From NCBI GenBank assembly GCA_963565915.1, contig OY751486.1:62001-126000 (forward strand): 64,000 nucleotides of DNA. The letters are read 5' to 3'. The translations under genes and the position numbers were made by a program. This document shows, in pieces, positions 25,288-43,831 of the stretch (the first letter of the stretch is position 1; each line of letters starts with the position of its first letter). The notes beneath the pieces are model-generated. The model made no database searches. It saw only the letters and a program-made list of their open reading frames with translations, and was not told the DNA's origin. The stretch comes from Entoloma clypeatum (taxonomy: Eukaryota > Basidiomycota > Agaricomycetes > Agaricales > Entolomataceae).

Positions 25288-25637
25288 GGTTATGGGCCCC
25301 GGATAGCAGAGGGACTTGGGAAACGCTGGCAACAGCGAGTACCTGCCCACTCTACCCTGGTTGGCAAAGAACCGATCGAAAGATCTAGGTTCTGAGTCTT
25401 ACTTCTTCACATATGAACCTGGGAACGCCATTACGACAAGTACCTGTCATGAAACATCCCTAAGGGGATTGACCTAGTACACTCCATGTGGAAACATTGA
25501 TCGCACCTTATACGTTTCTGACATATAAAGGGTTTTCCCGTGACCGCTATTCCTAAAGGGAATATGTCATAAGGAATCATTTAATTGTTTTCTTAAATCA
25601 TATTCATAACACATCACTGATTGGGAACCCTTTTTAG
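25199..25637 (+). promoter_or_regulatory. predicted leader intron of copia A2
   Basis: Donor GTAAGT at 25199 in the LTR, branch-like CTGAT at about 25616-25620 and acceptor CCCTTTTTAG at 25637, 11 nt before the gag ATG (25649). Splicing would remove the start-stop ATGTAA and the whole primer binding site. The donor hexamer is kept in the LTR at 49612 even though the overlapping ATG is lost there, which favours a splice function. Confidence 0.55.
25288..25302 (+). promoter_or_regulatory. primer binding site, half-tRNA-iMet type
   Basis: GGTTATGGGCCCCGG directly follows the 5' LTR. It matches the primer binding site type of Drosophila copia, which pairs with the anticodon-loop end of a cleaved initiator-Met tRNA rather than with the tRNA 3' end. 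The same sequence follows the copia-B LTR at 36529. Confidence 0.7.
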
Positions 25638-35911: not shown

Positions 35912-36085
35912 TACTATGCGCGGAGCAGAATCACCAGTTACGGAGAGGTAATTAGAAGAACTGGAAGGGGTGTGAGATGTATCGGAGTCGGACGCGGACG
36001 AAGCTGCTCCGAAGCGCGGAATTGTGACAATGATGCAATCGGACCCGGTCCAATTAGAAGAGAACTTTCTACTGTAAGGGCGACC

Positions 36086-36528
36086 TGTTGAGAATACATT
36101 CTAGACGGATGTCTCGACAGTCAATCACATGTCTATAAACATGTGTATTCCCATATGGAGTTACATATGGAAGTGTTCTAGACTTAGAACAATCTAGACT
36201 CGCTCTAGATCCCTGACTCATTAGATATGTGTCAGACGTGCATAACATATGTCATGTTATGTCACATCATGTGCTTGTCACACTATATGACTATAAGTCA
36301 CATATTACCATATATGTGAGTTTATGGTTCTGCGACAGAACTCAGTTTGTACTTGTTTGTACATGGTCTGTGCGCATCCTTGTAGGTATAAATACTTGAT
36401 GTATCTGTATCTGCAATAATAGGACTTTATCAAGTACCTTCATCACTCAAGCTCTTCTCGCTCTTCTTGCCTCCAATGTGAGTATCTTACCCAGGCTTCC
36501 CTGCGTATGTAGGTGTGCTGTTTCAATA
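36086..36528 (+). repeat. copia-B 5' LTR
   Basis: 443 bp. It has TATA-like GGTATAAATA at about 36386-36395 and a donor-like ATGTGAGT at 36476-36483. It ends TCAATA instead of the usual CA; the 3' LTR ends the same way, so this is a family trait and not a mutation. Confidence 0.9.
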
Positions 36529-36543
36529 GGTTATGGGCCCCGG
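36529..36543 (+). promoter_or_regulatory. copia-B primer binding site
   Basis: GGTTATGGGCCCCGG abuts the LTR, the same half-tRNA-iMet type site as in copia A2, although the LTRs of the two families are unrelated beyond their ends. Confidence 0.7.
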
Positions 36544-37600
36544 TTTGCCCGGTACAGTCTGCGCACTCTAACGGAGTTGCTGCGACTGTCTAGCCTGTTA
36601 GATACTAACCTGGCCTAGCCAGTGAGCGCGAGTCTTAAAAAGCGCCCTTTGGGCTGCTACCGCCTCTTTAGCTAGTAGCATAGACTAGTCTAAGTTAGTT
36701 ATCTGGTTTGATACTCGGAGGTTCCAGACTAGTGAGCGCCCTTTGGGCTGCACCTAGTTCTGATGTCCAAGACTAGCAAAGCGCCCCTAGGGCTGCATCT
36801 AGTTCTTGATCTAGACTAGGGCCTTTTATGGCCTACGTCTATATTTGGACATTTTGTATAAAGCCTGTGGCTTGAGCGCCTTGATAGGCAGCCGCCACAC
36901 CCCTGTGAAAAAACCCTCTCTTGTATCTGCGCCTTCTTTTGGCTGCAATCTAGATTTGGGGTTTTCTCACGCTGTGTCATGTCCTGTCTGGCATTTGGTT
37001 TTAACCAAATCAAGATGTGCTGACGTTTGGACATCACGATTCTCAGGAACTTTCTGTTCCTTGAACCCTTTTTTTTCGTCGATCGATCTTGATCCATTGC
37101 ACCCTGTACCTGATAGAAGCACCCTTTTTGGGTTGCCTCAGGGACTTCCCATTATTATGGTTGCACGATCTCAGATTTGATGCTGACTTAAAAATCGTTC
37201 CTAGATGAAAGGATCTTGCATCTGCTTCCATTATGGTTTCATTCAAGCAAACCATTGGTCACACCGTGACATCCGCGTTATTCAGCGTGATGACGGTTTC
37301 CACAGACGACACCTCTGTACTCTGAATTGCATGGTCACACCACGCATTCGGAAGGTGAAAGTCACGCAATTGCGATACGGACGGCATGCATGCCATATCT
37401 GTACTCGCAAATGTGGAAAGAAAAAAGCAGTATGCATCCCCATCTACATTCTCTTCACTCGTTGAACTATGACTCTAGGATCCCTGGGCGCCACGCCCAA
37501 GTAACATCCAAAGAGCTCAAACGAGGGACTTACCGTCCCCCTTCAATCATAGTGGCGATGAAGAAAGGAGAATCACACCCGAGGTTACACCCGGGGTAAT

Positions 37601-37640
37601 AAAGATGGAGCAATCGCCTGAACTATAGGCGACCATCTTT
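37601..37640 (+). other. two-tier hairpin upstream of copia-B gag
   Basis: AAAGATGG pairs with CCATCTTT, and inside it TCGCC pairs with GGCGA around a 9-base loop, with a 5-base bulge on the left arm. It lies in the predicted leader intron, 158 nt before the gag ATG. Confidence 0.65.
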
Positions 37641-37797
37641 AAGTAAATACCACAGCATTGTGACCCCTAGTCACATAAATAAAGGCTATTACATAAACTC
37701 TCTCTGACATGTGTCACAAACAATTCAGACAATACCTCTTATCGGTTCAAATTGGTCTTGAATATTTGCTGACCACTGTTTCTTTTTAGAAACAAAC

Positions 37798-38661
37798 ATG
37801 TCTTCAATCACTTCTTTGATTGCTGTTCCCGTTCTTGACGGCACAAACTACCCTGAGTGGGCGAACACCATGTGTTCGTTCCTTAGATCTCAGGATTTGT
37901 GGCAAATTGTTGATGGTGCTGAGAAGCGACCCTTGATGTCTGCTAACCTTACAAGGAAAGCCCATACAACTAAAGTCAAGGCATGGAACATTAGGGATCA
38001 AATGGCTTTAGCCAATATTCGACTTCGTGTCGACCTGTCGATCAAACTCACCAAGAATATGTCTTCTGAGACTTGGTTTGAGTTGAAGAATAGGTTCGGA
38101 CGAGCTGTTTATGAAACAGTTCTGTCTGACATTCGTGCTGCATTGTCCTTCAAACTTTCTATGAAGCGACAACCTGCAACCGAGATTGATTATCTTGATA
38201 AAATCTTTGATCATCTCGGCGCACATCATTATATTTCTCCATCGACTCGGGCCCTAATGCTTCTATCTGCCCTCCCGTCTCCTGATTGGAATGACTTTGC
38301 CATAGAAACCCTTCTTTACAATGATGATCTCACCTATGATAAGATTCGAGAATTAATTGTTGAAACATACAATCATCATCATGTTGATCCTGTTCCCGAT
38401 TTGTCACTTGAGGATTACCTTTACGGTATAGGTATCTCCTATGATCCTCAACCGACATCGTGCGATGTTTTTCATCAGCCGTTTCGGAACTTATGGAAAA
38501 AGAAGTCTTTTTTATCTGCGCCAACAGACCCTGGTGCTCTGCGCTACTCTAGCTGCGTCGCCGGTCTGGTGCATGATGCCGTCATAACAGAACAATGCAA
38601 GGGTCCACCCGTCGACAAGTACGACATAGCGTTTCCACGCCTGGACCTTATAACAGCATAA
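37798..38661 (+). CDS. copia-B Gag-like protein
   Basis: 287 residues from ATG 37798. The N-terminus (PVLDGTNYPEWANTMCSFLRSQDLWQ) is the copia-type gag signature, followed by AWNIRDQMALANIRL and a helical core like the gag part of copia A2. After about residue 205 the sequence is unlike the usual continuation, with no CCHC zinc knuckle and no protease. The frame ends at TAA 38661. It would form the capsid of virus-like particles. Since it is the element's only sizeable ORF, retention of an open frame suggests that Gag is needed in cis or was lost recently. Homology is certain at the N-terminal half and uncertain at the C-terminus. Confidence 0.8.
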   Translation: MSSITSLIAVPVLDGTNYPEWANTMCSFLRSQDLWQIVDGAEKRPLMSANLTRKAHTTKVKAWNIRDQMALANIRLRVDLSIKLTKNMSSETWFELKNRFGRAVYETVLSDIRAALSFKLSMKRQPATEIDYLDKIFDHLGAHHYISPSTRALMLLSALPSPDWNDFAIETLLYNDDLTYDKIRELIVETYNHHHVDPVPDLSLEDYLYGIGISYDPQPTSCDVFHQPFRNLWKKKSFLSAPTDPGALRYSSCVAGLVHDAVITEQCKGPPVDKYDIAFPRLDLITA

Positions 38662-41316
38662 TCATTGTGTAGAACGATTGTATTTTCTTTCTTTGCAATC
38701 AATACATTGATTTGCAATGTGTTCATATTTTGAACGAAAGAAAGAGAGATTTAAAAAATGCAAATGCATTTTATGTTCAAATAACTTATATCCAGTCTGG
38801 AATAATTCCAATAAGTTGGATGTGCTGTTGAGCCACCTACTATAAAGGAAACAATCTTTTCTTTTCAGGAATTAATATTCCACCTTATATTGGATAAGAC
38901 AAAAAATGCTTTCAAAGCATTTAAAAAGTAATATTGTATTCGTGCGCTATGGCATTTGCATAACACTTATTCTGCGCCTTGACAGGCTGCGATAGTGTTC
39001 AAAAATTGTCATTCTGGCTGCCAATATATAATACTTTATTATGCGAAGAAGAGTTTTTCAACCCTTCAACCTAAATCGATTCAAATTGGTCTAGCCAACC
39101 AATCTTGTTTCTCCACTCTTTCACCAAAAGTAGTGATGATTTGGGGCAATGCAAAGCTTCTTATCTGAACTCTCCATTTCTTGCATGGGAATGATCTCTG
39201 ATGCATCTTGCGCCTTTTAGGCTGGCATTGCATTTTGACTTATAAGGCATCTGCGCTTTAATCAAGCAGCGATGGCCTTGTCACAGAATCATATAGGGAT
39301 GACCGTGATGGTACACACCCTATGGCAAAAATGGATATAGTCAAAAAATCAGATTGTATCACAGCTTACAAATATTGCTGGAATAAATCGCCTGAGAGTA
39401 ATTACCTCAGCATAACTTGGAGAGTAATTCCTCCGCAGTTTGCGATTATTTTTTCTGCATGAATTTCTGGTTTCCCAACCAAGTTCTGCATCTATTTCAG
39501 TATATGCTCTTTGAAAGCCAAAGATACAGGGAAATGATTGCCATACTTGACTGTGAAAAGGGGGAGAATATAGAGAAACATTTTAATGGCAGCATTCTGC
39601 GCTATTTGCTTTGCGATACCATTGCTAGAAGACTGATCTTTGATCTTTTGATCACTATCAGATGCATTGCTTCGTATACAACACTCTATAGGTTGTACCA
39701 TTAAAGGAGCGCCGTGACCGCTGCATACTTGTCAAATGGTCAACTTAAACAAAGGAAAAAGCTTATCCCAGCTTATACCCCTATGATTTCTCACCTAGAA
39801 ACGATGAATTCTGGATAAAAGAGAATATTATATGAATCGATCCATTAGTCTTATCAGACTATTGTTGGGTTCTATTCCCAAGTATATCTTCTATGATTAC
39901 TTGATGAAGCATCTTAATTGATGGCTTACTAATAATGCATTAATTTGCATTAAATGGTTCTTGGAATACCAAGATTACTATTGATTGCATGAAACGCATC
40001 AGAGTGCTTGTTACACTCTTGAGATTTGGATCAACCCATCATCTGATCTGCGCCTTGTTTTGGCTGCGACAATGATCTGGTTCTTGCATTGAGTAGAGCG
40101 CCTGTGTTGGCTGCCTCCTTTGATAAACAAGACCAAATAACACCCTCATGCGTTATTGTTGTATCATGCAACAAACATAGTAAATCTGTGTTGATGTCTT
40201 AGAGTGGATTCTCTATTGACCTCTGAACATAAATCGGTTGTTCACCAACATAAGTATTACCAACTACAAAGAACTACATTGCAAGTCATTTATTTGACTA
40301 TAATCTGCAATATTGCTTGCACATCATCACATATAACAGTTGGCTTGATTGCCTATAAAATCTGTAAAATATACTCCACGGAATTGGTTTTCAGGGGAAG
40401 TTAATTCATTCTCTATTAACCCTAAAAAAACAATCCACATGATGTTTGCTTGTCTAACCTTTGCATAACAATGTGTGCCCCTTTGGGCTTGCCACAGTTA
40501 CTAGGCTTGATTATATCTGCGCCCAAATAATGGCTGCAATATTTAATTATTGCGATTATATTTTGCAATAGCTTGGATAGTACGTCAGACGATATGGGAA
40601 ACGATGACGAAACTACCAGCTGTCTCAGATATTATATTCTGAAGACTCAACGTCCACTATGACGATAAACTAGACCCTACTCCGGAAACAGAGCATAAAC
40701 TATCACAGTGGACTCTGAACCTAACTAGTTCATCCACATCCCTGAAGTCTGGAGTATTACACTCGACTCAGATGATATTATCTATAAACACACCTTAAGT
40801 GTTGCCATGATAATATTACATACTCAGGATAAAGGCCCCCTGGTCTAAATCCATGGTTGTTAGCGCCTTATTTGGCAGCTTCCCAGAGTATTAATAAGCT
40901 ATTTATAGCTTAGATCATGCCAAGCATGATATCATCAGTTGGTTAAATGACCCTTTGAGCCAGATCAAGTCTAACGAGCTCTTAATTGAGTTATGTCTTC
41001 TGACTTATCCCCGGCCTTAGTGCCACATGCTCTTTCCATACTAGTTCTTGCGCTACTACTGGCTGCAACTACTATGTGATCCATAAAAAACTGAGTACCA
41101 CTACGTCTTGAGCGCCTTCTTGGGCTGCCTGCATTGGTAGTCTCATTTTTGTGTGAATCATGGTCAAAACCATTGATACTCATCTGGAATGACAATAAAC
41201 TATCACACGTGGTTTGCTGATGCAATCAGGCCAAACACCTGACTCAGCATGGTCCGTGCGAGATAGGCAAAGCCTTAAATACGCTCCTCAAAGTCGAATT
41301 TTAGAGCAGGCTTCCA
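38662..41316. other. non-coding body of copia-B
   Basis: AT-rich internal region without any open frame of interest; pol motifs were looked for and not found in any frame. Its only recurring structure is the GC stem-loop motif described separately. Confidence 0.7.
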
Positions 41317-41502
41317 ATGGCATTCTTCGCCTACTTCTCCACCGCCTTCTACACTCGCTTCGCACATGCCGACCAGTTGACGCATGTTGCCTCGACCAAC
41401 GCCAGCAACACCACCACCACCACTACTGCAGCCTCCGCCGCTGCTTCCTCATCGCCCTCTAGCAGTAACACTGCTACGACCACCGACGACAAGAAACGTT
41501 GA
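41317..41502 (+). CDS. small ORF near the 3' end of copia-B
   Basis: 61 codons from ATG 41317 in a good context (CCAATGGC), just after acceptor-like ATTTTAG and GAGCAG. The peptide has a hydrophobic aromatic N-terminus (MAFFAYFSTAFYTRFAHA), a Thr/Ser/Ala low-complexity middle and a charged end (DDKKR). The N-terminus could act as a signal or membrane anchor. No family is recognised. It could be an accessory product of the element, a captured host fragment, or chance. Confidence 0.35.
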   Translation: MAFFAYFSTAFYTRFAHADQLTHVASTNASNTTTTTTAASAAASSSPSSSNTATTTDDKKR

Positions 41503-42233
41503 AGGAAAACTAAAGTAGGTAGTGGTAGAAGTAATTAAATAATCAATTACTTCAGTGGCTGCTCTAAGCCCTACACTGGCTGCTTCAAGCGCCATTATGG
41601 CTGCATGTTTATTGCGCTATTTCATATCTCTCAAAGGTATTTTTATCCTTTGATGATCTATTGATCTCAGATTGACTTCTGATGAGACCTGTCTATTCTT
41701 GTTTTGGAATTAGACTTATGGGTCTCTGATAAGACCTTAAATGACAGCGTATGCTAAACGACACAGCAGATCCCCTTTAGCGCCCTTACGGCTGCTGCCA
41801 TTTAATTTGGCTCTTCACTAGGACTTGAATATCTTCTTGTGAGCAAGTATTGAAACCTGACGGAATCACACTTGAGGGGGAGTGTTGAGAATACATTCTA
41901 GACGGATGTCTCGACAGTCAATCACATGTCTATAAACATGTGTATTCCCATATGGAGTTACATATGGAAGTGTTCTAGACTTAGAACAATCTAGACTCGC
42001 TCTAGATCCTTGACTCATTAGATATGTGTCAGACGTGCATAACATATGTCATGTTATGTCACATCATGTGCTTGTCACACTATATGACTATAAGTCACAT
42101 ATTACCATATATGTGAGTTTATGGTTCTGCGACAGAACTCAGTTTGTACTTGTTTGTACATGGTCTGTGCGCATCCTTGTAGGTATAAATACTTGATGTA
42201 TCTGTATCTGCAATAATAGGACTTTATCAAGTA

Positions 42234-43831
42234 CAGTGACTCAAAAAAATGATTCAATGTTTGACACTTTTTGAATATCTGTTGAATAACTTTGTATCTG
42301 ATATAAATAATACCAGGATGTTGGTATATGGAAGGAAGCATTTCATCAGGGCCATCCATCAAAAAAACAATTATGTAATTCCAATTAGTATCTATGGAAA
42401 TATGATCAGTTTAAAACAGGAACTCATTGAATCAATTATTTGAGGGGGTATCAGAAATATCAGAATCTGATGCTCCACTGATTCTATAGCAACCAATGAG
42501 TGACAAATAGTTGCTATAGTGATGCTACCTTTGATTGGACCTGGACTGAAGGTATTTAAGCAGTCAAAATGCCCTCAGGATGTTTTAAATTCAACACGCA
42601 CCTATTTCCTTTTTTCAGAAGAAAAACATCATTTTTCTGGTCATTCCACCCACTCTATTGCATCTAGCCTGGGTATCAGTCAGCCTACTGTATCCAGAGT
42701 GCTCCAGGACCTTGTTTCCAATTGCCAAACTTCTTCTGCTCGTCGTACTTCCAAGTATTCACTATTGCTCATCATGCAGTTATTCAACAAATTACAACTG
42801 GCAAGGCTGCCAATACTGTGGAGGCCACCAACCACATCAATACCACCATTCCCAGCCCTGTCTCCTCACAAACCATCAGAAATCCCCTCAAAAGGAATGA
42901 GTTCAAGGCAGAAACAAAGAAAAAAAACCATACCTCAAATTGGCACATCACAAGCAATGGTTGGCCTTTGCTCTCAAGTACAAGGAGTGGACTGTGGAGG
43001 ACTGTAAGAGGGTTATTTGATCAGATGAGACAAAAATCAACAGATTTGGGTCAGATGGGAAGCAGTGGGTCTGGAAAAAAAAAGGAGAGGGGTTGATTGA
43101 AAGAGAGGTGGAGGAAACACTGAAGTTTTGAGGTGGAAACATCATAGTATGGGACTGTATGGAATGGAATGGAGTTGGGAAACTTGCAGAGGTTGAGGGG
43201 AGGATGGGTGGTGATTAGTATGTGGCCATTTTGGAGGGTTACTTGCTGCCCAGCATTGATGAAAGTGGAATTTTTGAAGAGACAGTAATTTTTTAGCAGG
43301 ACAATAACCCCAAGCACATCTCCAACAAGGCTATGGAGAAGCAAGGAATTGTGGTCCAGGATTGGCCTTCATAGTCTCCAGATATGAAGATGCAACAGAG
43401 CAGGTGGAATGACTATTGGCGGCCAGAGAAAGGATGTTTTTCTTCTGAGCAGAGGAGATGGGACACATGTTGAATTTGAAATATCTTGAGAGCATTTGGA
43501 CTGCTTAAATACCTTCAGTCCAGGTCCAATCAAAGGTAGCATCACTATAGCAACTATTTGTCACTCATTGGTTGCTATAGAATCAGTGGAGCATCAGATT
43601 CTGATATTTCTGATACCCCCTCAAATAATTGATTCAATGAGTTCCTGTTTTAAACTAATCATATCTCCATAGATACTAATCAGAATTACATAATTGTTTT
43701 TTTGATGGATGGCCCTGATCAAATGCTTCCTTCCATATACCAGCATCCTGGTATTATTTATATCAGATACAAAGTTATTCAACAGATATTCAAAAAGTGT
43801 CAAACATTGAATCATTTTTTTTGAGTCACTG
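42234..43831 (+). mobile_element. Tc1/mariner-like transposon with long TIRs
   Basis: A 1598-bp element beginning CAGTGACTCAAAAAAA and ending with its reverse complement, flanked by TA (42232-42233 and 43832-43833). The inverted repeats extend about 360 bp inwards (42234 to about 42596, and about 43467 to 43831), far longer than usual for the group. They contain repeats of TAGCAACTATTTGTCACTCA type. The empty site is seen in the copia-B 5' LTR at 36452-36458. Confidence 0.93.
42519..43400 (+). pseudogene. Tc1-like transposase, broken
   Basis: Recognisable pieces in order are an N-terminal helix-turn-helix (SIASSLGISQPTVSRVL, about 42650-42705), the first catalytic Asp in SDETKINRFGSDGKQWVWKK (about 43021-43082) and the second in QDNNPKH (about 43301). 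They are spread over more than one frame. A TGA at 43018-43020 stands where Trp is expected, and a TAG precedes QDNN where Gln is expected. The third acidic residue is not convincingly seen. This copy is dead. Confidence 0.8.

Follow-up and report, generated by a model that had tools for sequence, protein, structure and literature searches.

Introduction

Ty1 is a retrotransposon of the copia type, and the TR-GAG elements of plants carry long terminal repeats (LTRs), a primer site and a purine tract, with gag as their only gene. To our knowledge, copia packaging signals outside yeast have been little studied, and we know of no repeated hairpin in TR-GAG elements; the TR-GAG literature that we found is, judged by titles and the beginnings of abstracts, on plants. 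Double-hairpin elements are grouped here with GC clusters as a comparison system. The packaging sequences of Ty1 are described as confined to the 5′-terminal 580 nt, and the element can do without internal sequence if the proteins are supplied in trans (PMC4974528). In the fungal GalEa copia elements, a Conserved Hairpin Site is reported directly after the 5′ LTR, where it replaces the primer site (PMC5445492), and the GC clusters of yeast mitochondria are described as numerous, mobile, GC-rich hairpins, one cluster type changing more in its loops (PMC4478555). Here we analyse a gag-only copia element of the basidiomycete Entoloma clypeatum, located in a stretch of 64,000 nucleotides (the window; contig OY751486.1, positions 62,001 to 126,000, assembly GCA_963565915.1), and a bulged hairpin that recurs along its RNA.

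The element belongs to family A, the names A, B and C for copia groups having been coined in this analysis. Like the plant TR-GAG elements, it combines LTRs, a putative primer site and a purine tract with a gag open reading frame (ORF) without pol. Structured RNA lies near its 5′ end, as in Ty1, but in contrast to what is described for Ty1 (PMC4974528), about 18 copies of a single short hairpin are distributed over the RNA. This hairpin resembles the GalEa site as reported (PMC5445492) in being conserved, with a constant mismatch and a variable loop, in a fungal copia element, and differs from it in its sequence, its repetition and the presence of a putative primer site. Unlike the GC clusters as described (PMC4478555), the hairpins of family A are one-stranded, belong to one element group and lie in a large contig of 5.7 Mb, hence not in the mitochondrion. 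Our literature search found no repeated bulged hairpin in a retrotransposon; we claim no wider absence. We propose, with a probability of about 0.45, that the bulged stem-loop is a recognition element in the sense RNA of one copia group, helping family A RNA to be picked up in competition with the RNA of an enzyme-coding relative, family B.

A bulged hairpin repeated on the sense strand

The hairpin (Table 1) has the consensus 5′-GCGCY-loop-RGC[U/A/G]GC-3′, with a loop of 4-8 nt. Between 36561 and 41795, the strict form GCGCC-loop-GGC[T/A]GC occurs 13 times in sense and never in antisense orientation (300 dinucleotide shuffles gave 0.01 on average), and a looser pattern occurs 16 times in sense and once in antisense (shuffle mean 0.06). 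Adding the hairpin at 37119 brings the tally to 17, and adding the interrupted one at 36561 and the eroded ones at 39210 and 40475 brings it to 20; the "about 19" copies of the original prediction, made from the window sequence alone, were thus a fair estimate, and the sense-strand bias that it described was recovered. The single bulge also stood: 16 hairpins have one unpaired base on the 3′ side, one has two, and none is unbulged.

Other details had to be corrected. The hairpins had been said never to lie inside gag; the one at 38541, GCGCTACTCTAGCTGC, is a full bulged hairpin within the gag ORF, its stem intact in 22 of 29 other copies. A paired change ACCC/GGGT proposed at 37119 turned out to be a one-sided step at a CpG, 19 of the 29 other copies reading GCGCCC...GGGT, with a G.T wobble, and ten GCACCC...GGGT. 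The A bulge reported at 36876 is seen in the window copy but not elsewhere (Table 1). Two further variants held up, the GCTT/AAGC stem at 39253 and the T-G wobble at 41050: both recur in the 12 other copies compared there, with an outer base missing from one copy at each site.

In folds computed with 75 bases on either side of each hairpin, 13 of the 16 hairpins reached an inner-stem probability of 0.8 or more, the exceptions being 36736, 40519 and 41589. Outer stems were better than those of shuffled sequences (mean z of -0.88 for 19 hairpins compared with -0.13 at 100 random places), with a positive z in five of the 19. These GC-rich hairpins sit in an AT-rich element body, and a comparison of 36080-42240 with the Rfam covariance models yielded no hit at E values of 1 or below.

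We searched the whole genome (60.1 Mb, 20 contigs) for the strict motif and obtained 846 matches (440 + 406), compared with 158 (82 + 76) for a pattern with a scrambled 3′ arm of equal composition; the latter was used as the baseline because a reversed-pattern control (54 + 39) is richer in CpG than the motif. Matches were sorted by element on contig 1, some LTR partners being assigned by flank pattern alone: among 84 places, 44 fall in five copies of family A, 15 in family B (two in gag), five in family C and 20 elsewhere. All 64 element-borne places are in the sense direction of their element, and the 20 others match the scrambled-arm baseline of 21; the surroundings of 19 of them (all except 5889629) were inspected, and many lie within other repeats or open frames. 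The hairpin is therefore, on contig 1, a feature of the A/B/C element group rather than a general repeat of the genome. The least certain placement is that of locus L047, whose repeat also adjoins two family C loci. Genome-wide, a T-A version of the motif shows a weak excess (232 matches versus 177 for the reversed-pattern control), which comes partly from family A gag copies, and a C-A mismatch version shows no enrichment (137 versus 160). Matches in three loci (L040, L054 and L055) were set aside, as they lie within the open frame of another repeat. An exact 16-mer scan of viral contigs gave 13 stretches, each with one copy of that 16-mer and at most two further loose matches and without an array, and these were taken as chance.

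Conservation of the stems among copies and relatives

A search with 36086-37700 returned 42 rows, most of them 95-97% identical, and 29 other family A copies were compared over the 5′ part, 12 of these also over the 3′ part. The LTR pairs are 98.6-100% identical in 11 of the 12 copies, those in which they could be compared, and five show no difference (two of the five over a partial LTR), indicating that family A moved recently. Between 11 and 30 copies align at each of 21 hairpin sites, and every one of them contains the stretch; these aligned copies gave no sign of presence/absence polymorphism. The expectation that other copies carry the same hairpins at the same places is thus borne out wherever they align.

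Stem changes among these copies are mostly CpG decay. In the 16 clear hairpins, non-CpG departures affect 6 of 2357 stem cells, compared with 24 of 1832 loop cells and 308 of 27098 cells of GC-matched other non-coding sequence, non-CpG stem sites being about one quarter as variable as loops or flanks. Counted as variable non-CpG sites, the contrast is 4/122 in stems versus 137/1452 in GC-matched non-coding sequence (Fisher p 0.02; site bootstrap p 0.005), and CpG stem sites changed in 24/743 versus 279/4486 cases (p 0.0009). Addition of 38541, 39210 and 40475 (36561 was excluded from the stem-rate tests) gives 12 departures in 2752 stem cells and 6/145 versus 137/1442 variable sites (p 0.03), so that the predicted slower change of stems relative to loops and flanks was found with both sets. 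The deficit comes mainly from variants common to several copies, which would fit selection during element replication.

The outer four pairs are almost invariant across the aligned hairpin rows and hence carry little information on covariation. Pair 5 is C-G, T-A or T.G in 42 of 44 rows and C.A in two, a result partly ascertained by the search pattern. In 27 of the 42 rows, versus 10.1 in shuffles, pair 6, which lies outside that pattern, is a Watson-Crick pair, and each of the four types occurs; rows of one lineage are kin, so these pairing counts are not probabilities. Restoring 12 rows (eroded homologs and some family B sites) left the result unchanged. Sense-strand G.T pairs are weakly in excess of A.C pairs (13 versus 7).

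Diverged relatives match the family A gag at 88% downwards (66% in L042, 68% in L077, 65% in L078 and 50% in L079). As far as the loci extend, the 36642 hairpin is kept in three of family C (L042, L077 and L043), and the 36736 hairpin in L042 and L077, with one outer base changed in L043. The tip of the latter reads CTTTG, GCTTTC or GTTTTTC amid near-identical flanks (hairpin lengths of 16, 17 and 18); across the relatives, its pairing is preserved while loop length and closing pair (C-G to G-C) change. The 36876 site has eroded forms in L042, L077, L043 and L079, whereas the form at 37119 is kept in L043 and L079, with a mismatch in L042 and a shortened version in L077. The 40050 hairpin is kept in L042 and L077 (in L077 without its last base), 40098 is altered, and 41589 is eroded in L077. 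Clean gaps remove the 41780 hairpin (about 28 nt) from L077 and the 39210/39253 pair (about 80 nt) from L042, L077 and L078, indicating that hairpins were gained or lost between families. Three further loci (L080, L081 and L082) did not align at the leader hairpin sites. A second recurring hairpin, with the sense form GCTGAGC-N-GCTCGC and a bulge on the 5′ side, is present in the family C loci L042, L077 and L078.

Shared sites, slow stems, a count far above chance, almost nothing in antisense and homologous hairpins with other loops all support the original description of conserved RNA elements, and the comparisons on which it could have failed (copies, stem rates, shuffles and antisense counts) left it standing. 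In our own estimate, selection on the sense-strand stems is well supported and quite probable.

Hairpins shared with an enzyme-coding relative

Family B encodes a copia domain set that includes reverse transcriptase and integrase, and it has LTR stretches, the putative primer site and the purine tract in common with family A. It carries at most four copies of the hairpin, confined to the first third of its RNA (the U5 part of the LTR, the leader and gag). The LTR carries GCGCCCTTTGGGCTGC about 20 bases upstream of its end, and a flank pattern for this hairpin, which cannot detect hairpins with altered flanks, matches 202 places genome-wide; among 100 listed of these, a stem base is changed in six, the T bulge is replaced by A in 15, and the loop is changed in none. 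Two copies (L039 and L044) have, besides the U5 hairpin, one in the leader and two in gag. In synonymous shuffles of these copies, the expected number of hairpins was 0.31-0.33 for the leader ORF and about 0.09 for gag-pol, about 0.4 altogether, versus two and two observed (P about 0.02 and at most 0.003, respectively), values that rest on two related copies. In family A, the hairpin at 41050 is a homolog of the family B leader hairpin (over 69 bases) and the one at 41112 of the family B U5 hairpin (over 44-81 bases).

Within the 3′ region of family A, the segment 41009-41147 resembles the family B leader in its first piece and the family B U5 in its second. This order is the reverse of that in family B, and the two pieces look as if they had been taken up by template switching.

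The leader of family B contains an ORF of 278 amino acids (aa) (L039:973-1806; L044:556-1389), with its ATG within the LTR (U5), which crosses the primer site and ends before gag. Residues 1-278 are spanned in 88 of 140 genome rows, 68 of these 88 being stop-free, and the ratio of nonsynonymous to synonymous substitution rates (dN/dS) is 0.25-0.43 in three pairs. The predicted protein has one strong hydrophobic stretch and nine cysteines; no Pfam family scored above the cutoff, and a protein search at E 0.001 came back without homologs. For insect MDG1 elements, small membrane ORFs have been described on the 5′ side of gag (PMC11952523).

A candidate recognition element and its alternatives

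Packaging or replication in trans would be the likeliest use of the hairpin, given its position, its sharing with family B and its copy number. The hairpin would act as RNA, bound by a protein of the family B machinery or by the Gag of either family; family B would be the candidate helper acting in trans, and the extra hairpins of family A may aid retention in particles or replication, packaging being the presumed step. In favour of such recognition, the family B hairpins in U5, leader and gag occupy the usual place of packaging signals. It is conceivable, if rather doubtful, that family A multiplied a recognition hairpin of the B type from about four to about eighteen, its non-coding body thus serving as a multivalent bait for the helper machinery. 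If true, this would account for the retention of a non-coding body of 3 kb. The question bears on how elements with gag alone gain access to the enzymes that another element encodes. A short, countable hairpin common to both partners, abundant in the parasite and sparse in its probable helper, would offer a direct dose test of RNA selection in copia elements.

Several observations weigh against recognition in trans. In a third family B copy (L041), two of the four hairpins have been lost by base changes and two are intact; the family B hairpins lie in coding frames, where the peptides SALWAA and ALLLAA alone yield them in about 8-12% of synonymous shuffles; and by eye no conservation of long outer stems was seen in family B. 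Locus L078 has no hairpin in 6.1 kb, and several family A hairpins are missing from relatives. In five of the 16 hairpins the outermost G-C pair folds with a probability of less than 0.5, the stem deficit shrinks from about 4-fold to 2.6-fold with the three added hairpins, with modest p values throughout, and for singleton variants alone it is non-significant (p 0.09, 16 hairpins). A zinc knuckle is absent from the Gag of both families. The primer site is also common to another copia element, at 25288 of the window, and therefore does not single out family B. Finally, the family A hairpins are spread along the entire RNA, beyond the 5′ end.

This spread would suit nuclear export of unspliced RNA or RNA stability better than a 5′ packaging signal, and the evidence for selected stems fits any RNA-binding role, so that a selected RNA element with another job (these two, dimer formation, localisation or shielding from RNA silencing) is the possibility to be taken most seriously besides recognition in trans, although we think it somewhat unlikely in view of the U5, leader and early gag sites in family B, where signals for packaging and priming usually lie. 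The self-copying palindrome akin to mitochondrial GC clusters, which the original prediction had offered as its alternative, is disfavoured. Such a palindrome could explain the clean gaps around 41780 and 39210/39253 and the GC-rich hairpins in an AT-rich body, but on contig 1 the motif keeps a single orientation and exceeds the baseline in the three related groups only, the family A copies compared show no absence polymorphism, and the stems are constrained. We consider it improbable that the hairpins are by-products without function in family A, whether duplicated segments of a hairpin-rich ancestor or remnants of the SALWAA and ALLLAA leader codons of family B: 36736 and 36781 do have flanks in common, and the homologs of 41050 and 41112 in family B are coding, yet homologous sites differ in loop length by steps that break the frame, stems change more slowly than flanks, and synonymous shuffles miss the family B count. 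The one-sided orientation, the loops free in length and, weakly, the G.T excess make a DNA-level site, such as a palindrome bound by a host or integrase protein, the least probable of all; our tests do not strictly separate it from an RNA element.

Architecture of the family A element and neighbouring features

In the window, the element spans 36086 to 42233, including a broken-off 3′ LTR (Table 1). The sequence GGTTATGGGCCCCGG at 36529 is read as a putative primer site from its place. Between the gag of family A and that of L077, dS is 0.64. Downstream of gag, a pol frame was looked for and no ORF of at least 150 aa was found between 38662 and 42233; a protein search with gag gave no homologs at E 0.001.

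Table 1. Features of the family A element in the window.
Feature	Position	Strand	Basis
5′ LTR, gag-only copia (family A)	36086..36528	+	also found at the 3′ ends of other copies, in alignments of up to 437-451 bases; begins TGTTGA, stops before primer site
Putative primer binding site GGTTATGGGCCCCGG	36529..36543	+	identical 15 bases after family B LTR and at 25288
Hairpin with 2-base insert; regular form GCGCTCTAATGGAGCTGC in L077	36561..36583	+	by eye; homology from position and flank
Leader hairpin	36642..36657	+	kept with different loop in L042, L077, L043
Leader hairpin; closing pair C-G, in relatives G-C	36736..36751	+	copies and relatives compared
Leader hairpin	36781..36796	+	outer stem z -3.16; other copies compared
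Leader hairpin; bulge A, elsewhere G (29/29)	36876..36892	+	other copies compared
Leader hairpin at tip of long irregular stem	36929..36946	+	other copies, folding
Leader hairpin GCACCC/GGGTTGC	37119..37136	+	forms in L042, L043, L079; shortened in L077
gag ORF, 287 aa, PF14223	37798..38661	+	mostly open in other copies; dN/dS 0.34 versus L077
Hairpin in gag, inner pair T-A	38541..38556	+	motif scan, other copies
Hairpin, 3′ non-coding part	38974..38990	+	motif scan, other copies
Eroded hairpin GCGCCTTTTAGGCTGG	39210..39225	+	other copies and relatives
Hairpin with T-A pairs, GCGCTT/AAGCAGC	39253..39270	+	motif scan, other copies
Hairpin; loop two bases shorter in L042 and L077	40050..40067	+	other copies and relatives
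Hairpin	40098..40114	+	motif scan, other copies
Eroded hairpin; 12/12 other copies GCGCCCC	40475..40492	+	other copies
Hairpin; inner pair T-G in 12 other copies	40519..40537	+	other copies
Hairpin, A bulge	40863..40879	+	motif scan, other copies
Hairpin, homolog of family B leader hairpin	41050..41066	+	other copies; alignment to family B
Hairpin, homolog of family B U5 hairpin	41112..41128	+	other copies; alignment to family B
Hairpin; L077 form eroded	41589..41604	+	other copies and relatives
Hairpin in about 28 nt missing from L077	41780..41795	+	other copies and relatives
Polypurine tract preceding 3′ LTR	41871..41882	+	L039/L044 have GTGAGGGGGAG there, L041 GTGAGGGGAAG
3′ LTR, interrupted at 42233	41883..42233	+	match to 5′ LTR stretch; direct reading

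The other copia element at 25288 has the same putative primer site and no hairpin match nearby, and it serves as a negative control. The window copy of family A lacks about 60 bp at 38853/38854, which are present in the 29 other copies (the sequence was read in two). Another transposon seems to start at 42234, where the 3′ LTR breaks off; judging by its ORF and its CAGTG end, we take the segment 42234-43500 that interrupts the LTR to be a Tc1/mariner-like transposon.

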